The notes below the pieces were generated by a model, which was given only the letters and a program-made list of their open reading frames with translations, ran no database searches and was not told where the DNA came from. A DNA stretch of 64,000 nt from Archangium violaceum (GTDB taxonomy: Bacteria > Myxococcota > Myxococcia > Myxococcales > Myxococcaceae). Location: contig NZ_CP069396.1 of assembly GCF_016887565.1 (NCBI RefSeq), positions 248,001 through 312,000 on the forward strand, in the 5' to 3' direction. This document shows positions 2,268-19,464 of this stretch, piece by piece. Both the position numbers and the translations under genes were made by a program. Each line of letters begins with the position of its first letter. The first letter of the stretch is position 1.

Positions 2268-2435
2268 ATGAGCAAGATGCAGCCGAAGACCCGCCTCCAG
2301 GTGAAGGACATCGCCGAGACCTCGAAGCGGCTGGGTGAGCGCGAGATCTCCGAGGCGGAGCTGAAGTTCGTCACGGGCGGCCAGGGCCCCACCCAGGGTG
2401 GCACCACCTCCGACACCGGTGACACCGACCAGTAA
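2268..2435 (+). CDS. RiPP precursor peptide, graspetide-like, double-glycine leader
   Basis: A 55-residue peptide with no catalytic features. The leader (residues 1-38) is charged and ends in ISEAELKFVTGG, which matches the classical double-glycine leader pattern LSxxELxxIxGG recognised by C39 peptidases. The remaining 17 residues, QGPTQGGTTSDTGDTDQ, form a core of five Thr, one Ser and three Asp with no Lys or Glu. That composition suits an ATP-grasp ligase joining hydroxyl side chains to carboxylates. The start at 2268 is preferred to the ATG at 2256 because GGAG lies six bases upstream of it. The ATP-grasp gene follows after 82 bases on the same strand. The family assignment is an inference from context and composition. 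Confidence 0.8.
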   Translation: MSKMQPKTRLQVKDIAETSKRLGEREISEAELKFVTGGQGPTQGGTTSDTGDTDQ

Positions 2436-2517
2436 GAAGTAGGAATCAGGCGCGTCTGGTCCGCCAGATGGCGAGCCGGGCGCGCCTGCTTCACCAACCC
2501 CTTCCGCGGAGCGGGTC

Positions 2518-3549
2518 ATGATTCTCATCGTGAGTGAACCCAAGGACCTGCACGCCAACGCCGTCGAGGCGAAGCTGCTCCAGCGCGGCGCCAGGGTGTG
2601 CCGCTTCGACTGGGCCGAGTTCCCTGGCACGGCGGCGATGTCCATCTCCTATCGCGGCGGGCACAAGAGTGTCCGGCTCACCCGCGGCGGCGAGGTGTTC
2701 GAGCTGGCCGAGTGCACCAGCGCCTGGTTGCGCCGCCCGAGCAAGCCTCGCGTCCCCACGCACATCCCCTTGCCGCTGCTCAAGGAGTACGCGGACGAGG
2801 AGTGCTACCGGCTCGTCCAGGACACCACCAACGCCTTGGAGGAGGTCCCCTGGTTGCCAGGGCCCATCGACGCCATCCGGCGCGCGGACAACAAGCAGCT
2901 CCAGCTTCAGTTGGCCACGCAGCTCGGGCTCGAGATTCCTCCCACGCTCATCACCAACGAGCCGGATGAGTTCCTGGAATTCTATCGCCAGCATGACGGG
3001 CAGCTCATCGACAAGTTTCCCAGTGTCGCCATGCCCGCCAGCCAGCGCACCGGCCGCGAGCTGATCCGCTACACGCAGCCAGTCACCACCCGCGACGTGG
3101 GCTACGCGCGGCGCCTGCGCCACAGCCCCATGTTGTTCCAGGCCCGTGTGCCCAAGAAGTTCGAGCTGCGCATCACCGTCGTCGGTGAGGCGGTGCTCGC
3201 CGCCGAAATCCATTCCCAGTCCACCAAGCGCACCCAGCTCGACTGGCGTCACTATGACCTGGGCCACACTCCGCACCGCGAGCACCACCTGCCGGACTCC
3301 GTCCGCCGCGCCTGCCTGGAGCTCGTCGCCCGCCTGGGACTGTGCTTCGGCGCCATCGACATCATCGTCACCCCGGATGACCGCTACGTCTTCCTGGAGA
3401 TCAACCCCAACGGCCAATGGTTGTGGATAGAGGAGCAGACGGGCCTGCCCATCGGCGATGCCATCTGCACCGCGCTCATGAACCCGGGCGCTCCCACCCG
3501 TTTTCCCACCAGCCGGCCCTCGCGCGCCTCACAGGAGAAGTGCCCATGA
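2518..3549 (+). CDS. MvdC/MvdD-family ATP-grasp peptide maturase
   Basis: A 343-residue ATP-grasp ligase of the kind that makes omega-ester or omega-amide crosslinks in microviridin-like graspetides. Residues 1-110 form the MvdD pre-ATP-grasp domain, including the WLRRP motif near 70-74. The ATP-grasp fold follows, with nucleotide-contact segments at 163-168 (LIDKFP) and 208-222, and the Mg-binding motif VFLEINPNGQW at 291-301, where Glu294, Asn296 and Asn298 are intact. The length is typical of the family. GGAG six bases before the ATG supports the start. The stop overlaps the next gene by four bases (ATGA), so the maturase and the PpiC-like protein are translationally coupled. The substrate is inferred to be the peptide encoded just upstream. 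Confidence 0.9.
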   Translation: MILIVSEPKDLHANAVEAKLLQRGARVCRFDWAEFPGTAAMSISYRGGHKSVRLTRGGEVFELAECTSAWLRRPSKPRVPTHIPLPLLKEYADEECYRLVQDTTNALEEVPWLPGPIDAIRRADNKQLQLQLATQLGLEIPPTLITNEPDEFLEFYRQHDGQLIDKFPSVAMPASQRTGRELIRYTQPVTTRDVGYARRLRHSPMLFQARVPKKFELRITVVGEAVLAAEIHSQSTKRTQLDWRHYDLGHTPHREHHLPDSVRRACLELVARLGLCFGAIDIIVTPDDRYVFLEINPNGQWLWIEEQTGLPIGDAICTALMNPGAPTRFPTSRPSRASQEKCP

Positions 3550-4604
3550 AGGAGTCCCTGCTTGCCGCCGTCCGCGACTCGCTCGAGCTGCTGGTGCGGC
3601 TGCGCCAGGAGCGGCTCGAGCCCGACCAGGCCAAGGAGCTGGTCCGCGAGTTGAAGGCCCGTCACCCCGCTCACTGGATGAACATGGTCTGGGAGCAGGA
3701 GACGTACGAGGACAAGCGTCACTACGACATCCTCGTCGGCGATGATGACGGCACGTACTCGCTGGGCTACTGCGCCGACGAGTCGCTGCCCTGGCCCGCG
3801 CGCGGGCTACAGCGGATGAACGAGTCGCTCGTGGTGCGCGTCAACGACGAGCCCATCCGCATCAACCAGGTCATCACCAGCCTGGACTACGCGTGGCACA
3901 CCCTGCACATCGGCCGTCACCTCATCAACGTGGCCATCATCGAGCAGGAGCTCCAGGGCGGCGTCGTCGAGGTCACCGACGAGGACTTCGCCGAGGCGCT
4001 GCTCGAGTTCCGCCAGCGGCGGCGGCTGTTCACCGCGGCCCAGGTGGAGCGCTGGATGCTCGAGCACGGCACCACCGAGCAGCTGCTGGAGAATCACCTG
4101 CGCTCGACGGTGGCGCAGAAGAAGCTGCGCCAGCGCGTGTCCGAGGGCCGTGAGGAGGCGTGGTTCAACAGCCACCGTGCCGAATTCGATCGTGTCCAGG
4201 TCGCCCGGGTGTTCATCGCCGACCAGGCCGAGGCCCAGCGGACGTACGAGCAACTGCGCGGCAAGCCGGGCCAGTTCCTCCAGATGGCCCAGACGCGCTT
4301 CCTGGAGCGCAACGAGCCGAGCGACCTGTTCGTCACGCTGCGGCGCGGAGAGGTCGAGCCCCAGCAAGCCGAGGTCCTCTTCTCCACCGAGCCGGGGCAG
4401 TTGGCCCCTCCCGTCAGCAGCGGGAATGGCTGCGAGCTGGTGCAGGTGTTGCGCTTCCTCCCCGCCCGGTTCGACGAGGCGATGCGCGCGAAGGTGGCGG
4501 ACCAGATGTTCGAGGAGTGGCTCGCCCAGAAGCGCCGCGAGGCCCGCGTGGAGTGGTACTGGGGCGCGGCCGAGGCCGCTCCGTTGCCCGCCGTGTCCTT
4601 GTGA
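3546..4604 (+). CDS. PpiC-like putative peptide maturation system protein
   Basis: A 352-residue soluble protein. The N-terminal 85 residues are mixed alpha/beta with conserved aromatic residues (HWMNMVW, DILVGDDDGTYSLGYC). Residues from about 115 look like the SurA/PpiC chaperone arm, and from about 210 like a degenerate parvulin domain (VARVFIADQAEA, GELxxPV-like AEVLFSTEPGQLAPPV). It resembles the TIGR04500 family, found beside ATP-grasp RiPP maturases; that assignment is from memory of the family and is unverified. It starts inside the stop codon of the ATP-grasp gene behind AGGAGA. A role in presenting or folding the precursor is inferred. There is no signal peptide, so it should act in the cytoplasm. 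Confidence 0.75.
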   Translation: MKESLLAAVRDSLELLVRLRQERLEPDQAKELVRELKARHPAHWMNMVWEQETYEDKRHYDILVGDDDGTYSLGYCADESLPWPARGLQRMNESLVVRVNDEPIRINQVITSLDYAWHTLHIGRHLINVAIIEQELQGGVVEVTDEDFAEALLEFRQRRRLFTAAQVERWMLEHGTTEQLLENHLRSTVAQKKLRQRVSEGREEAWFNSHRAEFDRVQVARVFIADQAEAQRTYEQLRGKPGQFLQMAQTRFLERNEPSDLFVTLRRGEVEPQQAEVLFSTEPGQLAPPVSSGNGCELVQVLRFLPARFDEAMRAKVADQMFEEWLAQKRREARVEWYWGAAEAAPLPAVSL

Positions 4605-4643
4605 GCCGAGGGGCCTCGCGCCCCTGTGCCCTGGAGGTCTCTC

Positions 4644-6065
4644 ATGAAAAGGTCTCTCGCGTTCCTGGCGTGTGCGCTCGCCGTGGCCCTGCTCGGGCCG
4701 GGGTGCGCCCACGCCCCGGCACCCACCGCCGCTTCGGCGCCCGCTGTCGCTCCGGCGCCCACCGCCGCTCCGGTGGATGCGAATGCGCTGAGGCAAGAGG
4801 CCGAGGCGGCGTACTTCGCGCTCGACTTCCCTCGCTGTGCCGAGCGCTACCGCTCGTCCGCGGACGCGAGCCCGGAGGCCGCCACCCGTGGCGAGCTCCT
4901 CTATTCCGCGGCGTGCTGCGCATCGTTGGCCGGTGCTCACCAGGAGGGGCTCGGGCTGCTGCGGCGCGCGGTCCAGGAGGGCTACCCCCAGGCCGACACG
5001 CTGGCGAATGATCCCGAGCTCCGCCCGCTGCGCGCGCTCGAGGGCTGGGACGCGGTGCTCGCCCAGGCGAGGGCCAATGCCCAGAAGGCGCCCAAGCCCC
5101 CACCGCCCCTGCGCGTGCTCGCGGGGGTCGACGTGTATGGCTCGCGCCGCGTCGATGCCGAGACGGTGCGCCGCGCGTTCGGCTTCGAAGTGGGCCGGCC
5201 CTTCGTGTTCAGCCAGGCGCTGGTGACGATGAAGGAGACCGAGCTCCGGAGACAGTACGCCCTGGCCTTCTCCCATGTGGCGTACATCAGCTACCACGCG
5301 GGCGCCGAGGCGGGCCGCGACTACATCACCGTGGACCTGGTGGACGAGGACGAGGCCTGGCGGCTGAAGTTCCTCCCCGAGCCGGCCGGGCATCCGGAGG
5401 ACCCGGAGGGGCTCGTGGCGCGGTGGCGGGAGTACGAGGACCGGGCCTGGACGCTGCTGCGCCGGGGCGAGCTGGACCTCGCGAAGCCCGTCTGCCGGGT
5501 GACGCACTGCTCGCTGGGCTTCGGCCACCCCGAGCTGTCGTCCTTCGAGCCCGTCTTCGTGGAGAAGGTCCCCGCCCGCGTGGACGCGCTGGCCCGCGTG
5601 CTGCGCGAGGACGCCGACCCGAAGAACCGGGCCGCCGCCGCCTTCCTGCTCGCGTATGCCTCCGAGTCGGGTCCAGCCATCGAGCGGCTCGTGGGCTCCA
5701 TCCGGGACTCTTCCCCGCTGGTGCGCAACAACGTGCTCCGCGTGCTGGGCGCCCTGCAGCGCAACGCGGACCGGCCGCTCGTCGAGCTGTCCCGCGTGCT
5801 CGATGCCATGGCCCTTCCGCAGACGACCGACCGCAACAAGGCCACCAGCCTGCTCGCGGCCGTGCTCGAGAAGACGAGCCCCTCGGAGCTGACGGCCCGT
5901 CGCGCGGACATCCTCCGTCAGGCCGGTGCGCAGCTCGTGGCCATGACCGCGCTCCAGCAGCCCATCAACCGCGACCCGGCCCGCACCGTGCTGGAGCGCC
6001 TCTCGGGAGAGCAGCACGACTCCGAGGGCTGGCGAGTGTGGCTCCGGAAGCAACAACGGCCGTGA
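4644..6065 (+). CDS. lipoprotein with TPR-like, POTRA-like and HEAT regions
   Basis: A 473-residue protein with an N-terminal hydrophobic signal ending in GPGC at 18-21, a lipobox-like site without the usual aliphatic residue at -3. An Ala/Pro linker follows, then an alpha-helical TPR-like stretch to about 150. Residues of about 158-240 resemble a POTRA-type strand-helix unit (VDVYGSRRVDAETVRRAFGF). The C-terminal half (about 310-470) is alpha-helical HEAT-like repeats (AAAAFLLAY, VRNNVLRVLGAL). AGGAGGT-like GGAGGT lies five bases before the start. It follows the PpiC-like gene after 39 bases on the same strand, so it probably belongs to the RiPP operon. Its role there is unknown; surface anchoring or transport assistance is a guess. 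Confidence 0.7.
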   Translation: MKRSLAFLACALAVALLGPGCAHAPAPTAASAPAVAPAPTAAPVDANALRQEAEAAYFALDFPRCAERYRSSADASPEAATRGELLYSAACCASLAGAHQEGLGLLRRAVQEGYPQADTLANDPELRPLRALEGWDAVLAQARANAQKAPKPPPPLRVLAGVDVYGSRRVDAETVRRAFGFEVGRPFVFSQALVTMKETELRRQYALAFSHVAYISYHAGAEAGRDYITVDLVDEDEAWRLKFLPEPAGHPEDPEGLVARWREYEDRAWTLLRRGELDLAKPVCRVTHCSLGFGHPELSSFEPVFVEKVPARVDALARVLREDADPKNRAAAAFLLAYASESGPAIERLVGSIRDSSPLVRNNVLRVLGALQRNADRPLVELSRVLDAMALPQTTDRNKATSLLAAVLEKTSPSELTARRADILRQAGAQLVAMTALQQPINRDPARTVLERLSGEQHDSEGWRVWLRKQQRP

Positions 6066-6163
6066 GCCCGTTTTTCCAGTCCTCGCCTTGATTCGAGGTC
6101 TGGCTCGCATTCATGCTCTCCCGGTTCGACGGCATGCTGCCGTCGAAGGGGAGGAAGACCTGG

Positions 6164-8062
6164 ATGCGTACCCGCATGCTCGCAGCTTGTCTCACGTTCG
6201 CCCTCACGGCCTGTGGCACGGAGCAGTCGGACCCTTCCGCCGGTGAGGCGAAGGTCGATGCCACCGACCTCGGCTCCACCCAGGACATCGAGGCGGCCCT
6301 CGCCGCCTTCCCCTCGACGCAGGTGCTCGGCACGCACGACAACGGCGTTCCGTACATGGTTCGCGGCGACTTCGGCTCGACCGACCTGTCGCTTCAGGGG
6401 CTCGCGGCCCGGGATGCTCACGCGCAGGTCAACCAGGCCCTGGCCGGCATCGCTCCCATGTTCCGCTTGAATGCCGCCGACCTCGTCGTGCGCCACCTCA
6501 CCCAGGACGAGCAGGGCCACACCCACATCCGCTATGCCCAGATGAAGAACGGGCTGCCGGTCGTGGGCCAGGAGCTTGCCGTCCACGTGGACGGTGACGG
6601 CCGCATCTACGCCGCCAATGGCTCGGCCCGCGATGGCGAGCAGCTCCCCTCCCGCGCCCGCATCTCCCCCGAGGCCGCGCGTGTCGTGTCGCTCGAGAGC
6701 ACGCCGGGTGGCAGCTCCACGCAGGAGTCGCCCCGGCTCGTCTACATCCGCTCCAGCGCGGACGGGCGGTTGAAGCTGGCCTTCGAGACCCTCGTCACGG
6801 GCTCGCACGAGGGCATGCCGGTGAAGGATCGCGTCTTCGTCAACGCCCTCGATGGTGCCGTCGTGGAGCGCATCTCGGAGATCCACGACGCACTCAACCG
6901 CGCCATCTACTCGGCGACCCCTCCGCCCACCCACCTGGTCCGCAGCGAGGGGCAGGCTCCCACGGGGGACCCCGTCGTGGACAAGGCCTATGACAACCTC
7001 GGCCTCTTCTACAATTGCTTCTCTCAGAACCTCGGCCGCGACTCGTTCAACGGCGCCGGGGCGCAGCTGCGGGCCACCGTCCACTACGGCAGCAACTACG
7101 TCAACGCCTACTGGGACGGCAGCCAGATGACCTGCGGTGACGGAGATGGCGTCAACAGTGGTTCGCTGTGCAACGACCTGGATGTCGTCGTCCACGAGTT
7201 CACCCACGCGGTGACCGAGTACGATTCCAATCTCATCTACTCGGGCGAGTCCGGCGGCCTCAACGAGGGCATGAGCGACATCTTCGCCGCCTACTGCGAG
7301 AGCTGGACGCGCACCTGGGCCACGGACCTGGACGTGTGGAAGGTGGGCGAGGACATCTGGACGCCCTCCACCGCGGGTGACGCGCTCCGCTACATGTATG
7401 ACCCGGCGCTGGACGGCTCCTCGCTCGACTACTGGACGAGCAGCGCCGGCAGCGTGGACGTGCACTACAGCTCGGGTATCGCCAACCTGGCGTTCAAGCT
7501 GCTGTCCACGGGCGGCACGCACCCGCGCGGCAAGTCGACCACGGTGGTGACGGGCATCGGCGTGCAGAAGGCCGGCGCCATCTTCTACAAGGCCAACAGG
7601 GATTTGATGACGGCCTCCACCACCTTCGCCCAGGCGAAGACCTACACCGAGCAGGCCGCGATTTCGCTCTACGGCACTGGCTCGGCCGAGGTGGCCGCGG
7701 TGACGGCGGCCTGGACGGCCGTGGGCGTGGGCGTGTCGGTGCCTCCTCCGCCGGCCAGCCCGCTGACCAACGGCGTGGCGAAGACGGGCCTGTCGGGCGC
7801 CACGGGCTCGCAGACCTACTACTACCTGGACGTGCCGGCCAGCAAGGCGTCCAGCTTCGTCATCAGCGGCGGCACGGGTGACGTGGACCTGTATGTGAAG
7901 GCGGGCTCCGCGCCGACCACGTCCTCGTACGACTGCCGTCCGTACCTGAGTGGCAACAACGAGACGTGCAACATCGCGGCGAAGACCGCGGCCACCCGCA
8001 TCTACGTGTTGTTGCGCGGGTACTCCACGTACGCGAGCGTCTCACTCAAGGGCAGCTACTAG
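6164..8062 (+). CDS. M4 (thermolysin-like) zinc metallopeptidase with PPC domain
   Basis: A 632-residue secreted protease. It has a lipoprotein-type signal (LTFALTACG), an FTP/PepSY propeptide, and the M4 catalytic domain with HEFTH at 344-348 and the third zinc ligand and NExxSD-like motif in GGLNEGMSDIF. A C-terminal pre-peptidase (PPC) domain (YYYLDVPASKASSFVISGG) begins near 545. The start at 6164 is preferred because GGGGAGGAAG lies upstream and the signal peptide begins there; upstream ATGs at 6113 and 6134 only add a charged tail. It probably digests extracellular protein, in keeping with predatory nutrition. It lies 98 bases behind the RiPP lipoprotein, but nothing links it specifically to leader removal. 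Confidence 0.92.
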   Translation: MRTRMLAACLTFALTACGTEQSDPSAGEAKVDATDLGSTQDIEAALAAFPSTQVLGTHDNGVPYMVRGDFGSTDLSLQGLAARDAHAQVNQALAGIAPMFRLNAADLVVRHLTQDEQGHTHIRYAQMKNGLPVVGQELAVHVDGDGRIYAANGSARDGEQLPSRARISPEAARVVSLESTPGGSSTQESPRLVYIRSSADGRLKLAFETLVTGSHEGMPVKDRVFVNALDGAVVERISEIHDALNRAIYSATPPPTHLVRSEGQAPTGDPVVDKAYDNLGLFYNCFSQNLGRDSFNGAGAQLRATVHYGSNYVNAYWDGSQMTCGDGDGVNSGSLCNDLDVVVHEFTHAVTEYDSNLIYSGESGGLNEGMSDIFAAYCESWTRTWATDLDVWKVGEDIWTPSTAGDALRYMYDPALDGSSLDYWTSSAGSVDVHYSSGIANLAFKLLSTGGTHPRGKSTTVVTGIGVQKAGAIFYKANRDLMTASTTFAQAKTYTEQAAISLYGTGSAEVAAVTAAWTAVGVGVSVPPPPASPLTNGVAKTGLSGATGSQTYYYLDVPASKASSFVISGGTGDVDLYVKAGSAPTTSSYDCRPYLSGNNETCNIAAKTAATRIYVLLRGYSTYASVSLKGSY

Positions 8063-8982: not shown

Positions 8983-9993
8983 CTACCGCTCGTAGAAGAG
9001 CAGGCCCGGGTCGAGGATGGGCCCGGAGCCTGCCAGGGTGCCGAACACGATGGCATCCCAGGTGCGGCGCCAGTTGGTGTACCGCGCCACCTGGGCGATG
9101 CTTCCGCGTCCATCCACCGCGTACAGCTCTCCCTGCCCCACGCTCCGGTCGTAGAACAGCAGGCCGTTGGCGCCGGTGTCGGAGATCCTGCAGGGGATGA
9201 TCATGTCCCAGGTGCGGCGCCAGTTCGTGTGCGCCGCCAGCAGGGCGATGCCTCCTTGCCCATCCACCGCGTACAGCTCTCCGTGGCCCGCGTTCCGGTC
9301 GTAGAACACCAACGTGGTGCGATTGGCGTCGCTGGTGGACTGGGTGAAGGGGACGATCAGGTCCCAGGTGCGGCGCCAGTTGGTGTGACTCGCCACCCGG
9401 GAGATGCGTCCCTGTCCATCCGTCGCGTAGAACTCGCCGTGGCCCGCGGCCCGGTCGTAGAAGAGGATCGAGTCGAAGGCCAGCGGGGCGTCGGGAGCCA
9501 CGTCCAGGGGGAGGATGGGAAGGATGGCGTTCCAGGTGCGGCGCCAGTTGGTGAACCGCGCGACCCGGAAGATGTCCCCCTCATCGCCCGTTCCATAGAG
9601 CTCTCCCAGCCCCTCCTCCCGATCGTAGAAGAGCAGCGAGTCACCCTTGCTGGCCTCCAGGAAATTGCTCGGGACGATGAGATCCCACCCACGGCGCCAG
9701 TCGGTGTGTCGCTTCAGGAGCTGGGGCTCGCCCCCTTCCCCGCTCGGCAGGTAGAACTCCCCCACGCCCGCCGTGCCGTCATAGAAGAGAAGGTTCGTGG
9801 CTTCCGTGAACTCCAGAAAGGCGCCCGGGATGATCATGTCCCACGTGCTCCGCACGTCGCGCTGGGTGTACGCGCGCTCGAGCTTGCCGGCCAGGAAGGT
9901 GTAGCCCTCGAGCTCTCCGTCGAAACGGATATCCGGGGCCCTGGCATCGGACAGCTCCTGCGTGGATGGGGCCTGCTGTGTCTCGGTCGACAT
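8983..9993 (-). CDS. six-repeat WRRTWD/LLFYDR protein, predicted propeller
   Basis: A 336-residue protein made almost wholly of six repeats of about 50 residues. Each contains TNWRRTWDxIIP, then LLFYDRxxGxGEFYAxDGQG, then a hydrophobic strand. The repetition shows at DNA level too (GGCGCCAGTTGGTG near 9068, 9221, 9376 and 9545). The pattern suggests a small beta-propeller with lectin-like surface, but no function is assignable. There is no signal peptide or double-glycine leader; the N-terminus is MSTETQQAPSTQELS. The start at 9993 has GGAG seven bases upstream. It is the last gene of the exporter operon, 157 bases behind the C39 ABC transporter, so it may be a cargo, an accessory or an immunity factor. 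It could also be independently transcribed. Confidence 0.8.
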   Translation of the reverse strand: MSTETQQAPSTQELSDARAPDIRFDGELEGYTFLAGKLERAYTQRDVRSTWDMIIPGAFLEFTEATNLLFYDGTAGVGEFYLPSGEGGEPQLLKRHTDWRRGWDLIVPSNFLEASKGDSLLFYDREEGLGELYGTGDEGDIFRVARFTNWRRTWNAILPILPLDVAPDAPLAFDSILFYDRAAGHGEFYATDGQGRISRVASHTNWRRTWDLIVPFTQSTSDANRTTLVFYDRNAGHGELYAVDGQGGIALLAAHTNWRRTWDMIIPCRISDTGANGLLFYDRSVGQGELYAVDGRGSIAQVARYTNWRRTWDAIVFGTLAGSGPILDPGLLFYER

Positions 9994-10150
9994 GATTGTC
10001 TCCAGGTGTTGGAAGCGCACTGCGCTGGAGATTGAGTGGGCTGGCAGATGATGTGAGCCGCGCGGTCCAATGGCAGGCGGGCGGGCGAGGCCGTGCTCGC
10101 CCTCTTCCACGGTGGACCCTCCGAGACTTCATCACCCGCGAGGGAGTTCC

Positions 10151-12376
10151 TCAGCCCGCCTTGTCGTGCTTCAGCTCGGAGCCGGGGGCGTGCACCAGCG
10201 TGGCGTAGAAGCCTCCCCGCCGCATCAACTCCTCGTGCGTGCCGGACTCCACCACCTGCCCGGCGTCCATCACCAGGATGAGGTCCGCCGCCTGCACCGT
10301 GCTCAACCGGTGTGCGATGACCACCCGGGTGCAGCGCAGCTCCGCCAGCGCGTCCTGCACCCGCCGCTCGGTGACGGTGTCCAGCGCGTTGGTTGCCTCG
10401 TCCAGCAGCAGCACCGCGGGCTTCATCGCCAGCGCCCTCGCCAGGGCCAGTCTCTGCCGCTGGCCTCCCGAGATGGCTCCGCCCATGTCCGACAGCAGCG
10501 TCTCGTAGCCCATGGGCATTCCCATGATGTCCTGGTGCACCTGCGCCAACTGCGCCGCCCGCTCCACCTCCTCGAGCGTCAGCGACGGGTCCGCCAGCGC
10601 GATGTTGCTGCGGATGCTGCCGCGGAAGAGCGCCGGATTCTGCATGACGATGCCCAGCTGCCGCCGGACCGCGCGCAGGTCCAACGAGGCCAGGTCCACC
10701 CCGTCGTAGAGGACCCGGCCCGAGCTGGGCAGGTACATGCCCACCAGCAGCTGCGCCAGCGTCGTCTTCCCCGCTCCGGAGCGGCCCACGATGGCCACGA
10801 ACTGCCCGGGCGGGATGTCCACCGTCACGTCCTTCACCACCAGCGCGCCCTGGGCGGAGTAGCGGAAGGACACCTGCTCCAGCTTGATGCCACCGCGCAG
10901 CGTGTGCGGCGGCCGGGGCTCTCCCCGGGGCTGCTCGGGAGGGCTGTCCAGGATGTCTCCCAGCCGCTCCATGTACCCGCCCAGCAGCTGCAGCTGGTTG
11001 GCGGTGCCCACCAGCGTGGCCAGGGACGTGAGGAAGCCCGCGGCCAGGGCGCTCAGCGCCAGCATGGTGCCCAGCGACAGCTGGCCCTGGAGCACCAGCG
11101 AGGCTCCCACGCACAGGATGACGAGCGGCGAGGCCAGCCTCAGCGCGTTGCCGGCCGACTCGGTGAGCGCGTTGAGACGGCCCCGATCCAGCGAGCTGTT
11201 GAGCACGTCCACGTAGAGGTTGGACCAGTGCTCCACCGAGCGGGGCTCCACGCCCAGGGCCTTGAGCGTCGGCATCCCCGTGAGCATCTCCAGCAGGTAG
11301 CTCTGCGAGGTGGCTTCCGCCTCGAGGTTGCGCGCCAGCAGCTCGCGCTGCTTCGCCATGGGCACCACGAACACCAGCACCTGCACCACCGCCAGTCCCA
11401 GCGAGAGCAGTCCCAGCGCCGGGCTGAGCACCATCAACAGCACCAGGTAGCCGCACACCATCACGCCATCGAGCAGTCCGGAGAGCGCTCCCGTGGTGAG
11501 CATCTCGCGGATGGTGCTGTGGCTGTTGACGCGGCCCATCAGGTCGCCCGCCGAGCGCAGCTGGAAGAAGGAGAGCGGCAGGTCCACCATGTAGTCCAGG
11601 AAGCGCAGTGTCATGCGCGCGTCCAGCCACGTGCGCAGGTGCAGCAGCAGGTGCGCGCGCACCAGCGTGACCAGGAACTGGAAGACGGTGAGCGACACCA
11701 GCCCCGCGCCCACCACCATCAACAGCCGTGAATCCCCTCGGGGGATGATGCTGTCCACCACCGCCCCGGTGAGCGATGGCACCGCGAGCGCGAAGAACTG
11801 CAGCGCGGCGGACACCAGCGCGACGCGCGCCAGCAGCGGCCACTGCTGCACCACCTGGCGCACGTAGCGCCCCGCCGGGCTGGTCCGCGTGCCGCCCTTC
11901 TCGAAGCCCTCGCCCGGCTCGAACAGCACGGCCACGCCCGTGAAGGAGCGCGCGAAGGACTCCAGGGGGATGTGGCGCCGCCCCAGCCCTGGATCCAACA
12001 GGTCCACCCCGCCGTCGCGCACCGCCTCGAAGACGACGAAGTGCTTGAACTCCCAGTGGAGGATGGCGCCGGGCTCGAGCAGCTCCACCTCGTTCAGCTC
12101 CACCTTCACCCCGCGCCCGTGCAGGCCGTAGGCCCGGCCCGCGCGCAGCACGTCCAGCGCCGTCGTCCCGTCCCGGCCCACCCCCATCGTGCCGCGCAGC
12201 TCGTCCAGGCTCACCCGGCGGCCGTGATACGCCAGCACCATGGACAGGCAGGCCGCGCCGCACTCGGTCGCCGCCAGCTGCCGCACCAGCGGAATGCGCC
12301 GCTTGCGCCCGCTCCTCCCCAGCTGGAGCAGGGCGGGAAACCTGTCGAAGAAGCCTCGGGGGTTTTCTTCACTCAC
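10151..12376 (-). CDS. C39-peptidase ABC exporter (double-glycine peptide transporter)
   Basis: A 741-residue peptidase-containing ABC transporter. The N-terminal C39 peptidase has the catalytic triad Cys39 (ATECGAAC), His112 (FKHFVVF) and Asp128 (LLDPG), with Gln33 for the oxyanion hole. A six-helix membrane domain spans about 170-450. The ATPase has Walker A GRSGAGKTT at 531-539, signature ISGGQ at 635-639 and Walker B VLLLDE at 655-660. Such proteins cut leaders after GG and export the cargo across the inner membrane with an HlyD adaptor. It starts at GTG 12376, overlapping the HlyD gene by eight bases. The precursor at 2268 carries a fitting leader motif and is the likely substrate, by inference. 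Confidence 0.93.
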   Translation of the reverse strand: MSEENPRGFFDRFPALLQLGRSGRKRRIPLVRQLAATECGAACLSMVLAYHGRRVSLDELRGTMGVGRDGTTALDVLRAGRAYGLHGRGVKVELNEVELLEPGAILHWEFKHFVVFEAVRDGGVDLLDPGLGRRHIPLESFARSFTGVAVLFEPGEGFEKGGTRTSPAGRYVRQVVQQWPLLARVALVSAALQFFALAVPSLTGAVVDSIIPRGDSRLLMVVGAGLVSLTVFQFLVTLVRAHLLLHLRTWLDARMTLRFLDYMVDLPLSFFQLRSAGDLMGRVNSHSTIREMLTTGALSGLLDGVMVCGYLVLLMVLSPALGLLSLGLAVVQVLVFVVPMAKQRELLARNLEAEATSQSYLLEMLTGMPTLKALGVEPRSVEHWSNLYVDVLNSSLDRGRLNALTESAGNALRLASPLVILCVGASLVLQGQLSLGTMLALSALAAGFLTSLATLVGTANQLQLLGGYMERLGDILDSPPEQPRGEPRPPHTLRGGIKLEQVSFRYSAQGALVVKDVTVDIPPGQFVAIVGRSGAGKTTLAQLLVGMYLPSSGRVLYDGVDLASLDLRAVRRQLGIVMQNPALFRGSIRSNIALADPSLTLEEVERAAQLAQVHQDIMGMPMGYETLLSDMGGAISGGQRQRLALARALAMKPAVLLLDEATNALDTVTERRVQDALAELRCTRVVIAHRLSTVQAADLILVMDAGQVVESGTHEELMRRGGFYATLVHAPGSELKHDKAG

Positions 12377-13367
12377 GGGAAGGCCACAACGGCTTGAGGA
12401 CGGGGAAGAGCGCCACCAGCGCGCCGCGCGTACCCACTCGCGCCCGCGCCGTGCCGGTCATCCCGTCGTGGTAACGGTAGGTGCGTCCCTCGCTGGAGAA
12501 CTCGCGCGAGGGCAGTTGCGCCCGGACGAGCACCAGCGAACCCTGCTGCAAGGACACCACGTCCCCTCGCGCCTGGCCCAGGTAGCGCCGCACCTCGGTG
12601 GGGCCCACCAGCTCGTCCGCCATCTCCGAGATGGTCAGGTCCACGTACTCGTAGGGGAAGCCGTGCAGCTCCAGGCGCACGGCGCCTCCCACGCGCAGCA
12701 TCGGGCGGGAATAGCCCGGCAGCAGCACCGTCACCGAGACGGGAGCCGCGTCCCGGCGCAGCGACAGCAGCACATCGCCCGGGCCCACCGCCTGTCCCGG
12801 GCGGACGCGGATGTCACCCACCACGCCGTCGGTGGGGGCCCGGAGCGAGCGCTCGTCGAGGCGGGCCTGGGCCAGCGCCAGCTGCGCCCGCAGGGAGGTG
12901 AGCGTCTGGCGCGCGCTCTCGTCGGTGAGATCCAACATGCGCCGGACGAGCTGTGCGTCCAGCTCGCGCTGGAGCCGATCGCGCTCGGCGAGCTCCTGCG
13001 CGGGGTAGAGGCGCAGCAGGACGCGGCCCGCCGTCACGCGCTGCCCGGGGCGCACGTCCACGTTCGTGACGATGCCCGAGGCCGTCGCGGTGAGGTCCTG
13101 CCCGCCCTCCACCTGGACGAAGGCGGGCCCCTCGGCGTACTCGTCGATGGAGGCCAGGACGAGGCCCAGCACGCCCGCGGCCAGCGCCCCGGTGAGCACC
13201 CAGAAGCTCGCGCGCAACCAGACGGGCGTGAGCGTCAGCAGGTTGCCCTGGGCGGCTCCGGCGGCATGCTCCTCGAGTGCCTGGCGTCGGAAGATGGATT
13301 CAGGCCCTGCCGGCAACGCCCCGACCTCCCCGGCGCGTCCGCCGCGCTGGTGAATGGCAATTACCAC
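12369..13367 (-). CDS. HlyD-family periplasmic adaptor of the C39 exporter
   Basis: A 332-residue membrane fusion protein. A cytoplasmic N-terminus is followed by one membrane helix at about 52-72 (SFWVLTGALAAGVLGLVLA). Two lipoyl half-motifs (ATASGIVTNVDVRPGQRVTAG and LRAPTDGVVGDIRVRPGQAV) flank a short coiled coil, and a beta-barrel region follows. It couples the ABC transporter to an outer-membrane channel. The start is GTG at 13367, 24 bases after the stop of the preceding adaptor; the ribosome site is weak, and translational coupling is likely. The stop overlaps the start of the ABC gene. No TolC homologue is present in the window. Confidence 0.88.
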   Translation of the reverse strand: MVIAIHQRGGRAGEVGALPAGPESIFRRQALEEHAAGAAQGNLLTLTPVWLRASFWVLTGALAAGVLGLVLASIDEYAEGPAFVQVEGGQDLTATASGIVTNVDVRPGQRVTAGRVLLRLYPAQELAERDRLQRELDAQLVRRMLDLTDESARQTLTSLRAQLALAQARLDERSLRAPTDGVVGDIRVRPGQAVGPGDVLLSLRRDAAPVSVTVLLPGYSRPMLRVGGAVRLELHGFPYEYVDLTISEMADELVGPTEVRRYLGQARGDVVSLQQGSLVLVRAQLPSREFSSEGRTYRYHDGMTGTARARVGTRGALVALFPVLKPLWPSRE

Positions 13368-13391
13368 ACCGGTTCCGCTGGGAGGAGCGGC

Positions 13392-14363
13392 TCATGGGGT
13401 CTCACCCACCCGCGTCGTCCGAGGCCCGCCGAGCGCCACGCGCACGGTGGTGCCGCCGAAGACGCGCGCGGCCCCGGCGTCGGGCGTGAGGGTGGCCAGG
13501 GCGAAGACCTGCTGGGAGGCCGCGTCGACCTCGGGGGCCACGCTCTCCACGGTGGCCTGGAGCAGCCGGCCGGTGGCCTCGACGGACACCTGGACGGGAG
13601 CGCCCGGGGCGAGCCGCGCGGCCACCTGCTCGGGGACGGCGAAGCGCACGCGCAGTACGTCGGCGCTGAGCAGCCGCAGCACGGGCGTGCCCTTGGCGAG
13701 CCGGGTTCCAGGGCTCACATAGCGCGCGGCCACCATGGCGTCGAAGGGCGCGCGCAGCCGGCCTTCCTCCAGTTGGGAGCGCAGCTGCGTCACCCGCGCC
13801 TGCTGCTCCTGTTGGCGTGCCTCGGCCGCCACCAGGCGCGCCTCGGCTCCGCGCTTCTGGTACTCGGCGATGGAGAGCTCCTCCGCCGACAGGGCCGCCT
13901 CCTTGGTGGCCTGGCGCCGCGCCAGACGCTCCCTGGCCTCCTCGACCTCCAGGGCGATGCTCTCCCGCTGGGCGATCGTCACCTGCAGCGCGGCCTCGGC
14001 GGCCAGGAGCTCCTGCTGCGTCTCCCGGGCGTCCAGGGCCGCCACCACGCTGCCTCGGTTGATCCGCTCACCCACCTGGCAGCAGACGGAGGCCAGCCGC
14101 CCTTCCACTCCGGCGGTGAGCTCCACCACCTCGCCGTGGAGGACCACGCCGAGGAACTGCTCTCCCGGCTCCGCCGCGTCCGAGCCGGGCCCCCGTGAGG
14201 CCTCGGGTACCGGAGCCGTGCTGGAGGGCGATGGAGCCTGGGCGCCACGGTTGGCCAGGACGACGCCCAGCCCACTCAGCCCCAGCAGCCCGGCGATGAG
14301 CCATGTGCTCGGAGGAATCCGCCGCCTGCCCCGTCCGCCTGTCATTCCAGAGTGCTCGTCCAT
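13392..14363 (-). CDS. second HlyD/efflux adaptor-like protein
   Basis: A 323-residue periplasmic adaptor. One membrane helix lies at about 20-38 (TWLIAGLLGLSGLGVVLA), then a Pro/Ser linker. The lipoyl halves VEGRLASVCCQVGERINRGS and APFDAMVAARYVSPGTRLA flank an alpha-helical hairpin of about 80 residues, and a beta-barrel with a C-terminal domain follows. It resembles RND-type adaptors more than the next gene does. It is the first gene of the operon, and two different adaptors with one ABC protein is unusual. The ATG at 14363 lacks a clear ribosome site; the in-frame ATG at 14345 is an alternative. Function in export is known for the family; the pairing is inferred. Confidence 0.85.
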   Translation of the reverse strand: MDEHSGMTGGRGRRRIPPSTWLIAGLLGLSGLGVVLANRGAQAPSPSSTAPVPEASRGPGSDAAEPGEQFLGVVLHGEVVELTAGVEGRLASVCCQVGERINRGSVVAALDARETQQELLAAEAALQVTIAQRESIALEVEEARERLARRQATKEAALSAEELSIAEYQKRGAEARLVAAEARQQEQQARVTQLRSQLEEGRLRAPFDAMVAARYVSPGTRLAKGTPVLRLLSADVLRVRFAVPEQVAARLAPGAPVQVSVEATGRLLQATVESVAPEVDAASQQVFALATLTPDAGAARVFGGTTVRVALGGPRTTRVGETP

Positions 14364-14519: not shown

Positions 14520-15455
14520 TCAGCTTCCCTGGAGCGCTCGGGTGAGGGTGATGGCCAGCTGGCTGCGCACCAGCTCGAGGATGTCATTCAGCTCCTCGGC
14601 CTCCACCTTCAGGAGTGATTGCAGTTCCCGCTGGGTCGCGAGCAGCAGCCGCGTTCGGGCGTGCGTCAGCCAGCGTGCCATGGTGATGCGGTGCACGTTG
14701 TACAGCTTGCCCAGCTGCTCCTGGGTGGCTCCTCCCACGAAGTGCAGGCGCAGGATGTTGAGCTCCTGGTCCGTGAGCGTGTCGAGCGCGGCGCGGAAGG
14801 CCCGCTGGAATGCCTCGCGGTACTGGCTCTTGATGAGCTGGAGCTCCGGGCCCGCGCTGTCCGTCCTGAGCCCGGTCGCCAGACGTTCATCCAGCGGAAC
14901 CTCGGCCGAGGCGCCGCGACGCAGGTTGATGGCCGCCCGGAGCGTGACGGCGCGCACCCAGCCCGCCAGCGGGCCCGTGCCCGCGTAGGACGCGATCTTC
15001 GGGCCACTCCGCTCCCGGCGCAGGAAGAGCCGCTCGCGCACGGCCTGCAGCGCCTCGTCGACGAAGGAGGGCGATGGATCCAACCGCCGCAGCGCGGCGC
15101 TCATCTCGGCGCCGAAGCGCTGGTCGAACTCGGCCAGGGCCACGGGGTGGCCCGCGGCGCACCCCAGCGCCAGCACGACGTCCGCGGCGTGGATGGACCG
15201 CAGCGTCCCCAGTGCATCCCCCGCTGGCGTCACCTGACGCAGGAGTGCCTCGAGGAAGTCGTCATCCGTGACCTCGAACCGTGTCCGGGCCTGGGCGCTC
15301 GCTTCGAAGAGCGCGTGGAGCACCGGCCCCAGCTGCTCCTCCTTCTCCAGTGCGCGCGCGGCCGGAGAGGGAAGCAGCGCGAGGGCTCGTGCGCGGAGCT
15401 GTTCCGGAGAGAGGTCGGTCTCGGGAGGAGGGGCAGGCGGCGAGGGTGATGTCAT
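14520..15455 (-). CDS. ECF-like sigma-70 family factor paired with kinase
   Basis: A 311-residue sigma-70-type protein. An N-terminal extension of about 110 residues precedes region 2-like sequence (RRERSGPKIASYAGTGPLAGWVRAVTLRAAINLRR). Region 4 has a clear helix-turn-helix (LTDQELNILRLHFVGGATQEQLGKLYNVHRITMARWL) near 225-275. It is much longer than a minimal ECF factor. It follows, after 21 bases, the gene for a kinase with an N-terminal anti-sigma-type zinc finger, so the two very probably form one signalling unit in which the kinase holds or phosphorylates the sigma factor. The target promoters are unknown. The exporter operon lies just beyond and may be a target, which is speculative. Confidence 0.82.
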   Translation of the reverse strand: MTSPSPPAPPPETDLSPEQLRARALALLPSPAARALEKEEQLGPVLHALFEASAQARTRFEVTDDDFLEALLRQVTPAGDALGTLRSIHAADVVLALGCAAGHPVALAEFDQRFGAEMSAALRRLDPSPSFVDEALQAVRERLFLRRERSGPKIASYAGTGPLAGWVRAVTLRAAINLRRGASAEVPLDERLATGLRTDSAGPELQLIKSQYREAFQRAFRAALDTLTDQELNILRLHFVGGATQEQLGKLYNVHRITMARWLTHARTRLLLATQRELQSLLKVEAEELNDILELVRSQLAITLTRALQGS

Positions 15456-15476: not shown

Positions 15477-18400
15477 TCAGGGAGACGCGGGATGGGCACC
15501 GAGCCATGCGTCCGCCTCGGTACGGGCGGCCTCATCCAGCTGGTCTCGCAGTTCGAGAATCCGCTGACGCGCCCGCCCTCTATCCGCGCCGCCGTTCTCC
15601 CACTGGAGCAGCGCCAGACGGAACCGCGTCTCCGCCTGCTCCGGGCCCAGGTTCGCATGCCGCTCGAAGATGGCGAGCGCTCGTTCCAGGGAGGTGCGCG
15701 CCTGGGCGAGCCGCCCCAGTCCGGCCAGTGCCAGGCCCACCTGGTAGTGAGCCGTGGCCACATGGGGATGCTCTCCCGGGAACGAGGCGGTGAAGATCTC
15801 CAGCTCGCGCCGGAAGTGCTCGAGTGCCTCGGTGTACCGCCCCAGCTTCATCAGCGAGATGCCCATCGAGTCCAGCGACACCCCCACCAGCACGTGGCGG
15901 GGGCCGAACTTCGTGGTGCGCAGGGAGAGCGCCTCCTGGTTGACCGCCAGCGCCTCCTCGAATCGCCCGAGGTGCCTGTACACGGAGGCCATGTTCGTGA
16001 GGACATTGGCCAGGGAATCCGAGTCCTGCTCCTTGCTCGCCCGCTCGATGTCCACGGCGCGCTGGAACGCGGTGAGGGCCTGCTCATTGTCTCCCAGCTC
16101 GTTGAGCAGGGCGCCCAGGTTGGCCAGCGTCTGGGCGTAACGGGAGGATTGTTCACCCGACAGGCGGGCGTAGATCCGCAGCGCCCGTTCATACGCCTCG
16201 CGTGCTTCGGGGAGCTGATGTCTGTGTTTGGCGATGATGGCGAGCAGGTTGAGCCCCGTGGCGAGCTTCAGGGTCTCGGGCCCCCAGTACCGCTCGCTCA
16301 ACACCAGGGAGCGATGGATGGCGGTGTAGGCCTCATCCAGGCGCCCCTGCATGTAGCGCGAGGCGGCCAGACCGTACAGGGCTCTGGCCAGGGCGGGCGC
16401 GTCCGGCCCGAGCCGCTGCTCCAGCGCCGTGACGCGCTCCTGGTCCAGCGCGGCCGCCTCGGCGTACTTCCCCTCTCGGTCCGCCAGCCCCGCGCGAGTC
16501 CCCAGCAACTCCGTCTCCAGGAGCAGGTCCCGGTGGCCCAACCGGTCGAGCTTCGCCTGGGCATAGTCGATGCTGCGGTGCGCCTCGGCGAACTCCTTCT
16601 TATCGGTGGCGTAGATCAGGGCCAGCAGCGTCCAGGCTCGCGTGGCGAGCGTGTCCTCGTGCCCTCTCTCCGCTCGGAGCGCCGCCTGGCGGAGCCGCTC
16701 GAGCGCTTGCGGTATCTGCTCATCCAGGCGCAGCAGCTCTCCTTCGAGGAGGAGCACCTCGGCCTGCAGGGGAGGGTAGGCCAGCGCCTCGGAGGCCCGG
16801 GTCAGTGCTTCGGCGCGCGGGAGCGCCTCCTTGAGGTGACCCAGCTCCTTGAGCGTCTCCAGTTCCGCCAGCTGTCCGCGCAGTGTGAGCACCTGCTGCC
16901 GGACGGAGGCATCCTGGGGCAACCCCGGAGCCTCCAGCAGGGCCGCCGCGTTGGCGCACTCGCTCAACGAGGGGAGCGCATGCACGGCGTCCAGCGCCTT
17001 GTCCGCCGTGGCGCGATCGGCGTGCTCCAGCTGACGTGCCAGGGCCGACATGCGTTGCAGCGCGTGCTCCAGACACAGCATGCGGCGATCGAGCAGTTGC
17101 TCGGACTGCTCACCCCGGACGCGAGTGGCCTCGCAGGCCTCGCGGTGCATGGAGGCCCAGTCCGAGGTGTAGCCATCCACGCGCTGGGTGAGCAGTTCCC
17201 AGGTCCGTTCCGCACCGGGAGCCCCGCTGGCCAGCAGCCCGCGGCGCACGTTCTCCCGGGCCGCGGCTCCCCACGCGGACTGGACGCGGGCGGGCCCTCC
17301 GGCACACAGCTGGGCCGAGCGGTACGTCCACTGCGCGAGGCCCGCTCCCAACAACCCCAGCAGCAACACCCCCGCTCCCAGCAGCGCCGCGACGCGCCTG
17401 CGCCTCCGCGCCGGGTCCAGCTCCAGGAGGGCCAGCAGCGCCTCCATGGAAGGGTGGCGCGCCGAGGGCTCGGGCTGGAGCCCGCGCACGAGCGCCGCGT
17501 GGATTCGCGCGGGAATCTGCCGCTGAGCGGGCGCGGCGCGCAGGCGGCCCGCGAGCACTTCCTGTCTCAGCGCGGCGGGCGAGTCGCCGGCGAAGGGGTG
17601 CTCGCCATGGAGCGCCTCCCAGAGCGCCACGCAGAAGCTGAATTGATCCGTAGAGGGGCCCGTGGCCGCTCCCAACCACTGCTCGGGCGCCATGTAGCGG
17701 GGGGTGCCGGCCTGGGCGCCCGACAAGCTCGAGGGCTGGGCCTCCGTGCGCACCTGTCCCGCTTCGGCTCCGGGGAGCGTGTCCGGTGTGACTTCCGTCA
17801 CTCGCGCCAGGCCGAAGTCGGTGACGCGCACCCGGCCCTCGCGCCCGAGGAGCACGTTGTCGGGCTTGAAGTCGCGGTGGACGAGCCCCACCGCGTGGGC
17901 GGCGGCGAGCCCCCGGCCCGCCTCCGCGAAGCAGTGCAACACCCGCCGCCAGTCGTGGGAAGCGGCCGACAGCCACGTCCCGAGCGTCTGCCCGTCCACC
18001 AACTCCATGGCGACGAATACCTGCTCGCCCTCGGTGCCCACGTCGTAGACGGTGACGACGTTGGGATGGGACAGCCGGGCCAGCGCGCGGGCCTCGCGTT
18101 GCAGTCGGAGCCGTCCCTCGGGAGAAGAGGCGCCATGAGGGCCGTGGGGCGACAGCAGCTTGAGCGCGACCTTGCGGTCGAGCTCCGGGTCATACGCCGA
18201 ATACACCACACCCATGCCACCGATGCCGATGGGGTCGAGCACCAGGTAGCGCCCCATGGCCGTGCCGCGGGACAGCACGGGCGCGGGTTGGGGCGGTGAC
18301 GAGACGCTGGCCGCGGGGCCGTTCTCCGCGACCAGTGCCGACACCACCTCGAAGCACACGCTGCATCGAGCCAGGTGTGCTTCGAGCGCCGAGCGCTCCG

Positions 18401-18485
18401 TGTCGGGGAGCGAGCCGGTCGCGAAGCCGACCAGTACCTGCTCGGGGGGGCACCCCACCGCCCCTGATGAAGACGATTGGCTCAT
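15477..18485 (-). CDS. zinc-finger Ser/Thr kinase with TPR array
   Basis: A 1002-residue protein of four parts. Residues 10-50 have an anti-sigma zinc-finger-like arrangement (Cys12, then His37, Cys41 and Cys44 as HLARCSVC). The kinase spans about 80-350: G-loop GIGGMGVVY, Lys109, catalytic loop HRDFKPDN, DFGLA and the APEQW segment. One membrane helix follows (AALLGAGVLLLGLLGAGLA) near 375-395. The C-terminal 550 residues are TPR repeats, for example ALTAFQRAVDIERA and RYTEALEHFRRELEIF. The start at 18485 is the first ATG; GTG at 18512 would add nine residues. It is cotranscribed with the sigma factor. The TPR part would face the periplasm and could sense a protein ligand (inference). Confidence 0.9.
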   Translation of the reverse strand: MSQSSSSGAVGCPPEQVLVGFATGSLPDTERSALEAHLARCSVCFEVVSALVAENGPAASVSSPPQPAPVLSRGTAMGRYLVLDPIGIGGMGVVYSAYDPELDRKVALKLLSPHGPHGASSPEGRLRLQREARALARLSHPNVVTVYDVGTEGEQVFVAMELVDGQTLGTWLSAASHDWRRVLHCFAEAGRGLAAAHAVGLVHRDFKPDNVLLGREGRVRVTDFGLARVTEVTPDTLPGAEAGQVRTEAQPSSLSGAQAGTPRYMAPEQWLGAATGPSTDQFSFCVALWEALHGEHPFAGDSPAALRQEVLAGRLRAAPAQRQIPARIHAALVRGLQPEPSARHPSMEALLALLELDPARRRRRVAALLGAGVLLLGLLGAGLAQWTYRSAQLCAGGPARVQSAWGAAARENVRRGLLASGAPGAERTWELLTQRVDGYTSDWASMHREACEATRVRGEQSEQLLDRRMLCLEHALQRMSALARQLEHADRATADKALDAVHALPSLSECANAAALLEAPGLPQDASVRQQVLTLRGQLAELETLKELGHLKEALPRAEALTRASEALAYPPLQAEVLLLEGELLRLDEQIPQALERLRQAALRAERGHEDTLATRAWTLLALIYATDKKEFAEAHRSIDYAQAKLDRLGHRDLLLETELLGTRAGLADREGKYAEAAALDQERVTALEQRLGPDAPALARALYGLAASRYMQGRLDEAYTAIHRSLVLSERYWGPETLKLATGLNLLAIIAKHRHQLPEAREAYERALRIYARLSGEQSSRYAQTLANLGALLNELGDNEQALTAFQRAVDIERASKEQDSDSLANVLTNMASVYRHLGRFEEALAVNQEALSLRTTKFGPRHVLVGVSLDSMGISLMKLGRYTEALEHFRRELEIFTASFPGEHPHVATAHYQVGLALAGLGRLAQARTSLERALAIFERHANLGPEQAETRFRLALLQWENGGADRGRARQRILELRDQLDEAARTEADAWLGAHPASP

Positions 18486-18589
18486 GGAGACACGACGAAC
18501 TGACGGGAGCACCTTACCGCTCAGGGAGCGCTTCTGGCACCCGCGCCCGTCCGCCGTATCCTTCGCGACTTCTGGGAAACTGGGACCTC

Positions 18590-19225
18590 TCAGACGGCGG
18601 TGTAACCGCCATCGGCCATCACGACGGAGCCGGTGACGAAGCTCGCGCGGTCAGAGGCCAGGAAGGCGATCACCTCGGCGATCTCACCCGGCTGGGCGAC
18701 GCGGCCGATGGGCGCGGCCTTTCCATGCTCGACCAGGAACTGGCGGCCGTCCGGCCGGACTTCATCCAGGATTCCGGTCTCCACGTCGCCCGGCGCGACC
18801 GCGTTCACCCGCACGCCATGGGCGGCGTTCTCGATGGCGAGCACCTTGGTCAGTTGGGCGACGGCGCCCTTGGAGGCCGCGTAGGCGGAGATCGTCGGCA
18901 GGGCGTAATAGCAGGCGTAGGAGCCGACGTTCACGATCGACCCGGCTTCCCTGGGGATCATCGCCCGCAGCGCCTCGCGCGCATGGACGAACATCCCGCG
19001 CGCATTGACCGCCATGAGCGAGTCCCACTCGTCGACGGTCATGTCGACGGCCAGCTTGTTCAGGATCCGCGCGGCGTTGTTCACGAGGATGTCGACCTTG
19101 CCGAAGCGTTCGAGGGCGAGGGCCACCGCGCGCCGGGCGGTCTCTTCTTTCGAATGGTCTCCGAACCGGTGGACCCACCTCTTCCTCCGTACCACGACGG
19201 AGCGATGGCGCATCACCGGGTCCAT
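18590..19225 (-). pseudogene. SDR oxidoreductase lacking its N-terminal cofactor site
   Basis: From about 19160 to the stop this is a good classical SDR: GKVDILVNNA, catalytic Ser and YAASK, and C-terminal SVVMADGGY. The first 50-55 residues of the family, with the TGxxxGIG dinucleotide motif, are absent. Upstream in frame the sequence is Arg-rich and unlike any SDR (MDPVMRHRSVVVRRKRW), and no other frame upstream holds the missing part. The gene is therefore probably a 5'-deleted remnant. A functional start was not found; 19225 is the nearest plausible ATG. The next gene on this strand, the kinase, begins 105 bases downstream of the stop. Confidence 0.6.
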
Positions 19226-19244
19226 GCTTCCGCCGGGCGGCGGT

Positions 19245-19260
19245 GTTCGATCAATCGAAC
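19245..19260. promoter_or_regulatory. 16-bp dyad, possible operator
   Basis: GTTCGAT and ATCGAAC are perfect inverted arms separated by two bases. They lie in an unusually AT-rich stretch (about 19240-19320) just upstream of the truncated SDR. The size and symmetry suit a TetR-type operator; no regulator gene is nearby. Confidence 0.3.
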
Positions 19261-19464
19261 CTACATATCTAGATTCTTCGGCTGTTCCGTCAGTGCGTCG
19301 AACGCCATATTGCATCCGTCCCCGGCGCTGCCGGATGGCTGTGCCGCGACGGAATGAATTCCGCGTTCGGCTGTCAGTGGAGCGTTCAACTCGTCACTGC
19401 CACGGGTTCCGGGGCGGGACTTCGCGGGGGGGTCGTCGCCGACGACGGGAGGAAGGGCCGCCGC

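Follow-up and report, generated by a model that had tools for sequence, protein, structure and literature searches.

A putative three-gene graspetide cluster with a TIGR04500 partner protein in Archangium violaceum

The window, a 64,000-nucleotide stretch of the Archangium violaceum genome, very likely carries a graspetide cluster of three genes that belongs to the TIGR04500-partnered, rosaritide-like type (group 21). Its three adjacent genes, coding for a precursor peptide (A), an ATP-grasp ligase (B), and a chaperone-like partner (C), probably make a small ring-locked peptide by means of the ligase and its partner. We describe the gene content, homology, and conservation of this locus and the fold of C, and infer the chemistry of the peptide, its ring pairing, its protease, and its function. 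A graspetide locus had been proposed in an earlier note on this DNA, a proposal that is borne out by the ligase homology, its motifs, and the conserved A-B-C gene order. That note also took the PpiC-like protein for a partner in a possible less-described subtype. The partner role stands; the claim about the subtype does not, since TIGR04500, group 21, and rosaritide have already been characterized (PMC13097080). The proposed subtype is known in outline, and what is new is the peptide core and the Thr/Cys variation among its relatives. Partner-dependent graspetides have so far been characterized in a single actinomycete; the cluster would widen their range to myxobacteria and to Chloroflexota and bring in a core that is much shorter.

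Genes of the cluster and predicted rings

Four open reading frames, all on the plus strand and closely spaced, lie where the earlier note had placed them. These and other relevant features of the window are as follows.

2268 to 2435, plus strand: precursor peptide gene A, 55 aa (start shared with the closest relative, G063; end of the leader conserved across five myxobacterial loci)
2382 to 2432, plus strand: predicted core QGPTQGGTTSDTGDTDQ after the double-Gly site (cleavage site predicted from the GG motif)
2518 to 3549, plus strand: graspetide synthetase B, ATP-grasp ligase, 343 aa (homology to TIGR04187, PF21068, and PDB entries 5ig8/5ig9; tree)
3241 to 3249, plus strand: DWR motif of B, residues 242 to 244 (identical in seven homologues)
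3397 to 3411, plus strand: EINPN metal/ATP-binding motif of B, residues 294 to 298 (identical in seven homologues)
3546 to 4604, plus strand: partner protein C (TIGR04500), 352 aa (TIGR04500 match; SurA/Cj1289-like fold)
4644 to 6065, plus strand: lipoprotein D, TPR-end/HEAT, judged to be outside the system (follows the triad only in G063)
10151 to 12373, minus strand: C39-peptidase ABC transporter, candidate exporter and leader protease (PF03412, PF00664, PF00005)

The gene for the 55-residue peptide, which the earlier note had recognized, starts with the ATG at 2268 and encodes a GG leader. There is also an in-frame ATG upstream, at 2256, but G063 lacks it, which favors 2268 as the start. 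The leader, MSKMQPKTRLQVKDIAETSKRLGEREISEAELKFVTGG, has an ELxExELxxVxGG-like end that is common to the myxobacterial precursors, and the precursor is the sole match to a simple GG-leader pattern on either strand of the 64 kb. The predicted core consists of 17 residues, with 6 Ser/Thr, 3 Asp, and a single Pro. As expected of a graspetide precursor, A is short, is encoded beside the ligase, and combines a leader with a core that offers Ser/Thr donors and Asp acceptors. The putative ATP-grasp target family TIGR04497 showed weak matches, all below its curated cut-off, to the precursors of Archangium lansinium (G062), another myxobacterium (G100), and Nonomuraea, and no match to the window precursor; a TIGR04497 scan of 96 Myxococcaceae gave nothing above the cut-off, and its weak matches were noise-like.

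The ligase is of the MvdC/MvdD/TIGR04187 kind expected in graspetide clusters, with intact motifs. The graspetide models TIGR04187, MvdD, and MvdC match 2518 to 3549 at E values from 1e-66 to 1e-73, below their curated cut-offs (for TIGR04187, 246 bits against a cut-off of 350), whereas PF21068 is found above its cut-off. B also aligns with the solved graspetide ligases 5ig8 and 5ig9 (E about 1e-51). The earlier note was right in describing an MvdC/MvdD-like ligase with an intact Mg-binding motif (EINPN), and the DWR motif of B corresponds to DFR in graspetide synthetases. Six other TIGR04500-partnered ligases show 42 to 97% identity to B, and in a tree of 26 rows, with MirB of the rosaritide cluster left out, the seven group together with a support of 94/93 and in 98% of the bootstrap trees.

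The predicted core of G063, AGPTQGGTTSDTGDTDQ, differs from that of the window at one residue. The A. lansinium core, MASQGGTCSMCGDCDE, has no Pro; the other predicted cores are RLAVQDLACTCPNTCGPCGPDDH in a further myxobacterium (G099), AGCSCPNTCGPCGPDDHQVL in G100, and ARMERCYHTNGTEGRPSDGWVSDY in Nonomuraea, and the Herpetosiphon precursor ends in CTCTPWGGIDVD. In a short alignment, three Cys of A. lansinium, three apart, stand opposite Thr9, Thr12, and Thr15 of the window core. Hydroxyl residues are kept at Thr4/Ser3, Thr8/Thr7, and Ser10/Ser9 (window/A. lansinium), and acidic residues at Asp14/13 and Asp16/15. Since Thr9, Thr12, and Thr15 correspond to Cys in A. lansinium, where the remaining donors are still Ser or Thr, our best guess from these sequences is that up to three rings would form, with Thr4, Thr8, and Ser10 as donors, Asp11, Asp14, and Asp16 as acceptors, and a conjectural pairing. 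The hydroxyls are predicted to be the ring-formers because Ser/Thr match Asp/Glu in number in the cores of A. lansinium (three and three) and G100 (two and two). As a lead, drawn from a short alignment and a small sample, we suggest that ring formation falls to the hydroxyls and that any Cys may serve another purpose, e.g., disulfides.

It is also conceivable, if rather doubtful, that the myxobacterial TIGR04500-partnered graspetides alternate between Thr and Cys at fixed positions of the core, the Cys versions having either natural thioester rings or extra disulfide or metal cross-links over the ester rings. We consider it distinctly unlikely that the Cys/Thr positions are themselves the donors, with thioester rings in the sister species and esters at the same positions in the window. 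The alignment of three Thr with three Cys fits such a reading, and graspetide synthetases do tolerate substituted donors, thioesters being possible on engineered substrates; however, the equal numbers of Ser/Thr and Asp/Glu make Cys donors unnecessary, and a narrow literature search found no natural thioester graspetide. Natural homologues in which these sites hold either Thr or Cys provide a ready test of cysteine use by graspetide ligases in nature.

Distribution, loss, and neighboring genes

TIGR04500 is found above its cut-off in 5 of 195 Myxococcota genomes, including the genome of the window. In all five, a ligase gene directly precedes the TIGR04500 gene and is itself preceded by a small GG-type peptide gene. 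The A. lansinium cluster is located on contig NZ_JAPNKA010000001, and a search of genome contigs matched A. lansinium alone. Outside Myxococcota, the A-B-C order is found on the Herpetosiphon plasmid pHAU01 and in Nonomuraea gerenzanensis, both of which encode a C protein above the TIGR04500 cut-off; partner searches started from these two each matched only itself, and a comparison of precursor A with plasmids gave no match. The earlier note had held that ligase homologues consistently lacking a nearby small peptide gene would speak against its proposal; such a gene is found just upstream of every TIGR04500-partnered ligase homologue detected. Given that the precursor-ligase-partner order is common to seven genomes from three phyla and that the GG-leader pattern is unique in the 64 kb, the locus is not a chance arrangement.

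On pHAU01, the precursor gene (7776 to 7931 of the retrieved locus, L083), which precedes an annotated ATP-grasp gene, is unannotated, and the partner gene seems to have been annotated with a start too far downstream.

The cluster has been lost in some close relatives. The corresponding region of G061 (L067) is co-linear with that of A. lansinium at about 85% identity, but it lacks everything between a point upstream of A and a point within C, and only the end of C remains; G064 (L066) has a C fragment and no B. The triad is therefore dispensable. The loss in G061 of A and B and of the larger part of C, at the site where these genes lie in A. lansinium, together with the remnant in G064, could mean that the window cluster, too, is decaying or silent and yields no product. 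We regard this as very unlikely, as none of the three genes is disrupted in the window and their motifs are conserved, B and C are 97% and 93% identical to their G063 counterparts, and the predicted cores differ at one residue.

A four-gene system, with the HEAT lipoprotein D as an immunity or export partner, is harder still to credit. D is encoded on the same strand after a gap of 39 bases, and the gene order is the same in G063, which is co-linear with the window over 10 kb at 89.7% DNA identity. However, G063 is the one relative in which D comes after C; the triads of A. lansinium, G099, and G100 have no D beside them, the G099 homologue of D lies on a contig other than that of the triad, and many Myxococcaceae carry the lipoprotein without a full-length TIGR04500 gene. 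On this synteny and distribution, the partnership suggested in the earlier note had to be rejected: D is a neighbor, outside the three-gene system.

Right after the lipoprotein gene, the window encodes an M4 thermolysin-like metalloprotease (6113 to 8059, plus strand) with an FTP propeptide and a PPC domain, a family with many paralogues. Long open reading frames at 12240 to 14195, 15492 to 18296, and 18296 to 19354, all on the plus strand, have no Pfam match and lie near a sigma-70-like gene (14520 to 15455, minus strand).

Group 21 clusters show high, although not reportedly universal, co-occurrence with PCAT/NHLM transporter genes; in the window, no transporter gene adjoins the triad. The nearest C39 ABC transporter gene is about 4 kb away on the opposite strand, and no such gene was found in the retrieved flanks of the other triads. 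It is possible that this C39-peptidase ABC transporter cleaves the precursor after GG and exports the product; the genome holds further candidates of the same type. Directly downstream of the transporter gene, a minus-strand gene (8983 to 10110) encodes repeated NWRRTWDxIIP units with no Pfam match.

The partner protein

The gene for C overlaps that of the ligase by four bases (ATGA, 3546 to 3549), as the earlier note had it. C scores 246.7 bits against TIGR04500 (cut-off, 180), and its gene adjoins that of the ligase, as is typical of the group 21 partner. It consists of an N-domain, a SurA-like chaperone part, and a parvulin-like domain that lacks both catalytic His. As modeled by AlphaFold2, C has a mean pLDDT of 72.7 overall, and the model is good at residues 130 to 330, approximately. 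In this model, the best Foldseek match is Cj1289 (3rgc), and C has the SurA-like C-domain characteristic of group 21 partners. The N-domain, with two helices and three strands in a low-confidence part of the model, gave no significant match, and no RRE was among the matches listed; for the N-domain of MirC, the rosaritide homologue of C, the resemblance to RRE is reported as weak (PMC13097080).

The positions of the two parvulin His are occupied in C by Arg221 and Glu297; neither is His in any of the seven homologues, and the myxobacterial proteins have Arg/Glu. That C works as a prolyl isomerase and controls the cis/trans state of the core, as the Rotamase_2 match (E value, 2e-8) and the modeled alignment of residues 211 to 310 with the parvulin domain 3gpk (Z score, 10.4; 2.5 Å; 94 residues) might suggest, is most improbable and was rejected, given the loss of the conserved His pair in all seven proteins, the one Pro in the window core and none in that of A. 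lansinium, and the reports that MirC has no similarity to PPIase domains and that the Pro residues of rosaritide were trans (PMC13097080). Since the parvulin-like fold is kept without the two catalytic His, a role of C as adapter or chaperone is, judging from the model, more probable than one as isomerase. Such a partner, parvulin-like in its fold but devoid of the active site, would go some way to explaining the dependence of the ligase on it.

Proposed pathway and comparison with known systems

TIGR04500 had already been listed among the genes near ATP-grasp loci in a 2022 survey (PMC8939145) and has since been described as a conserved partner that co-occurs with the graspetides of group 21 (PMC13097080). 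In Micromonospora rosaria, MirB gives no product without the TIGR04500 protein MirC, the two proteins co-purify as an active complex, and rosaritide contains three esters (macrolactones), S8-D22, S9-D26, and T11-D24 (PMC13097080, 2026). Dependence on C, B-C co-purification, and three esters, all demonstrated for the Micromonospora homologue, may apply to the window by analogy. Precursor A would be made by the ribosome and its leader would dock on a complex of B and C, in which C would stabilize the ligase and present the core. B would then use ATP to phosphorylate the Asp side chains of the core and join them to Ser/Thr hydroxyls, each of the resulting ester rings corresponding to a loss of 18 Da, and a C39-type protease-transporter would cut off the leader after GG.

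Microviridins (MvdC/MvdD, MdnB/MdnC) share with this cluster the family and fold of the ATP-grasp ligase and a short leader-core precursor. In contrast to them, the window has one ligase rather than two, no TxKxPSD core, and no PFFARF-type leader helix; microviridin membership was therefore rejected. The same genome does encode a canonical microviridin locus with tandem ligases (contig G000:C1, about 9967342 to 9969800, minus strand; L068), whose precursor has three TxKYPSD-type cores (TTKYPSDSDE once and TMKYPSDGDE twice) and whose C39-type ABC gene is at 9960354 to 9962504.

With the TIGR04497 family, the shared feature is a short leader motif, seen in the weak matches of the A. lansinium, G100, and Nonomuraea precursors; the window precursor does not match the family model. 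The middle and C-terminal parts of C have the fold of the chaperones and parvulins SurA, PrsA, and Cj1289, from which C differs in its extra N-domain, the linkage of its gene to a ligase gene, and the missing catalytic His. Unlike the rosaritide cluster (mirABCD), that of the window has no adjoining PCAT gene, and its C has a recognizable parvulin-like domain, reported to be lacking in MirC. The rosaritide core has an SSxT motif, about ten residues, and then DxDxD, whereas the window core is compact, with 17 residues and no long donor-acceptor spacer. This difference in layout, the lack of an adjoining exporter, and the ligase score below the TIGR04187 cut-off count against the reading proposed here. 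Both clusters combine a small precursor, a TIGR04187-type ligase, and a TIGR04500 partner, both cores have an Asp/Thr-rich end, and both partners have a Cj1289/SurA-like C-terminal part, Cj1289 (3rgc) being the reported top structural match of MirC as well (PMC13097080).
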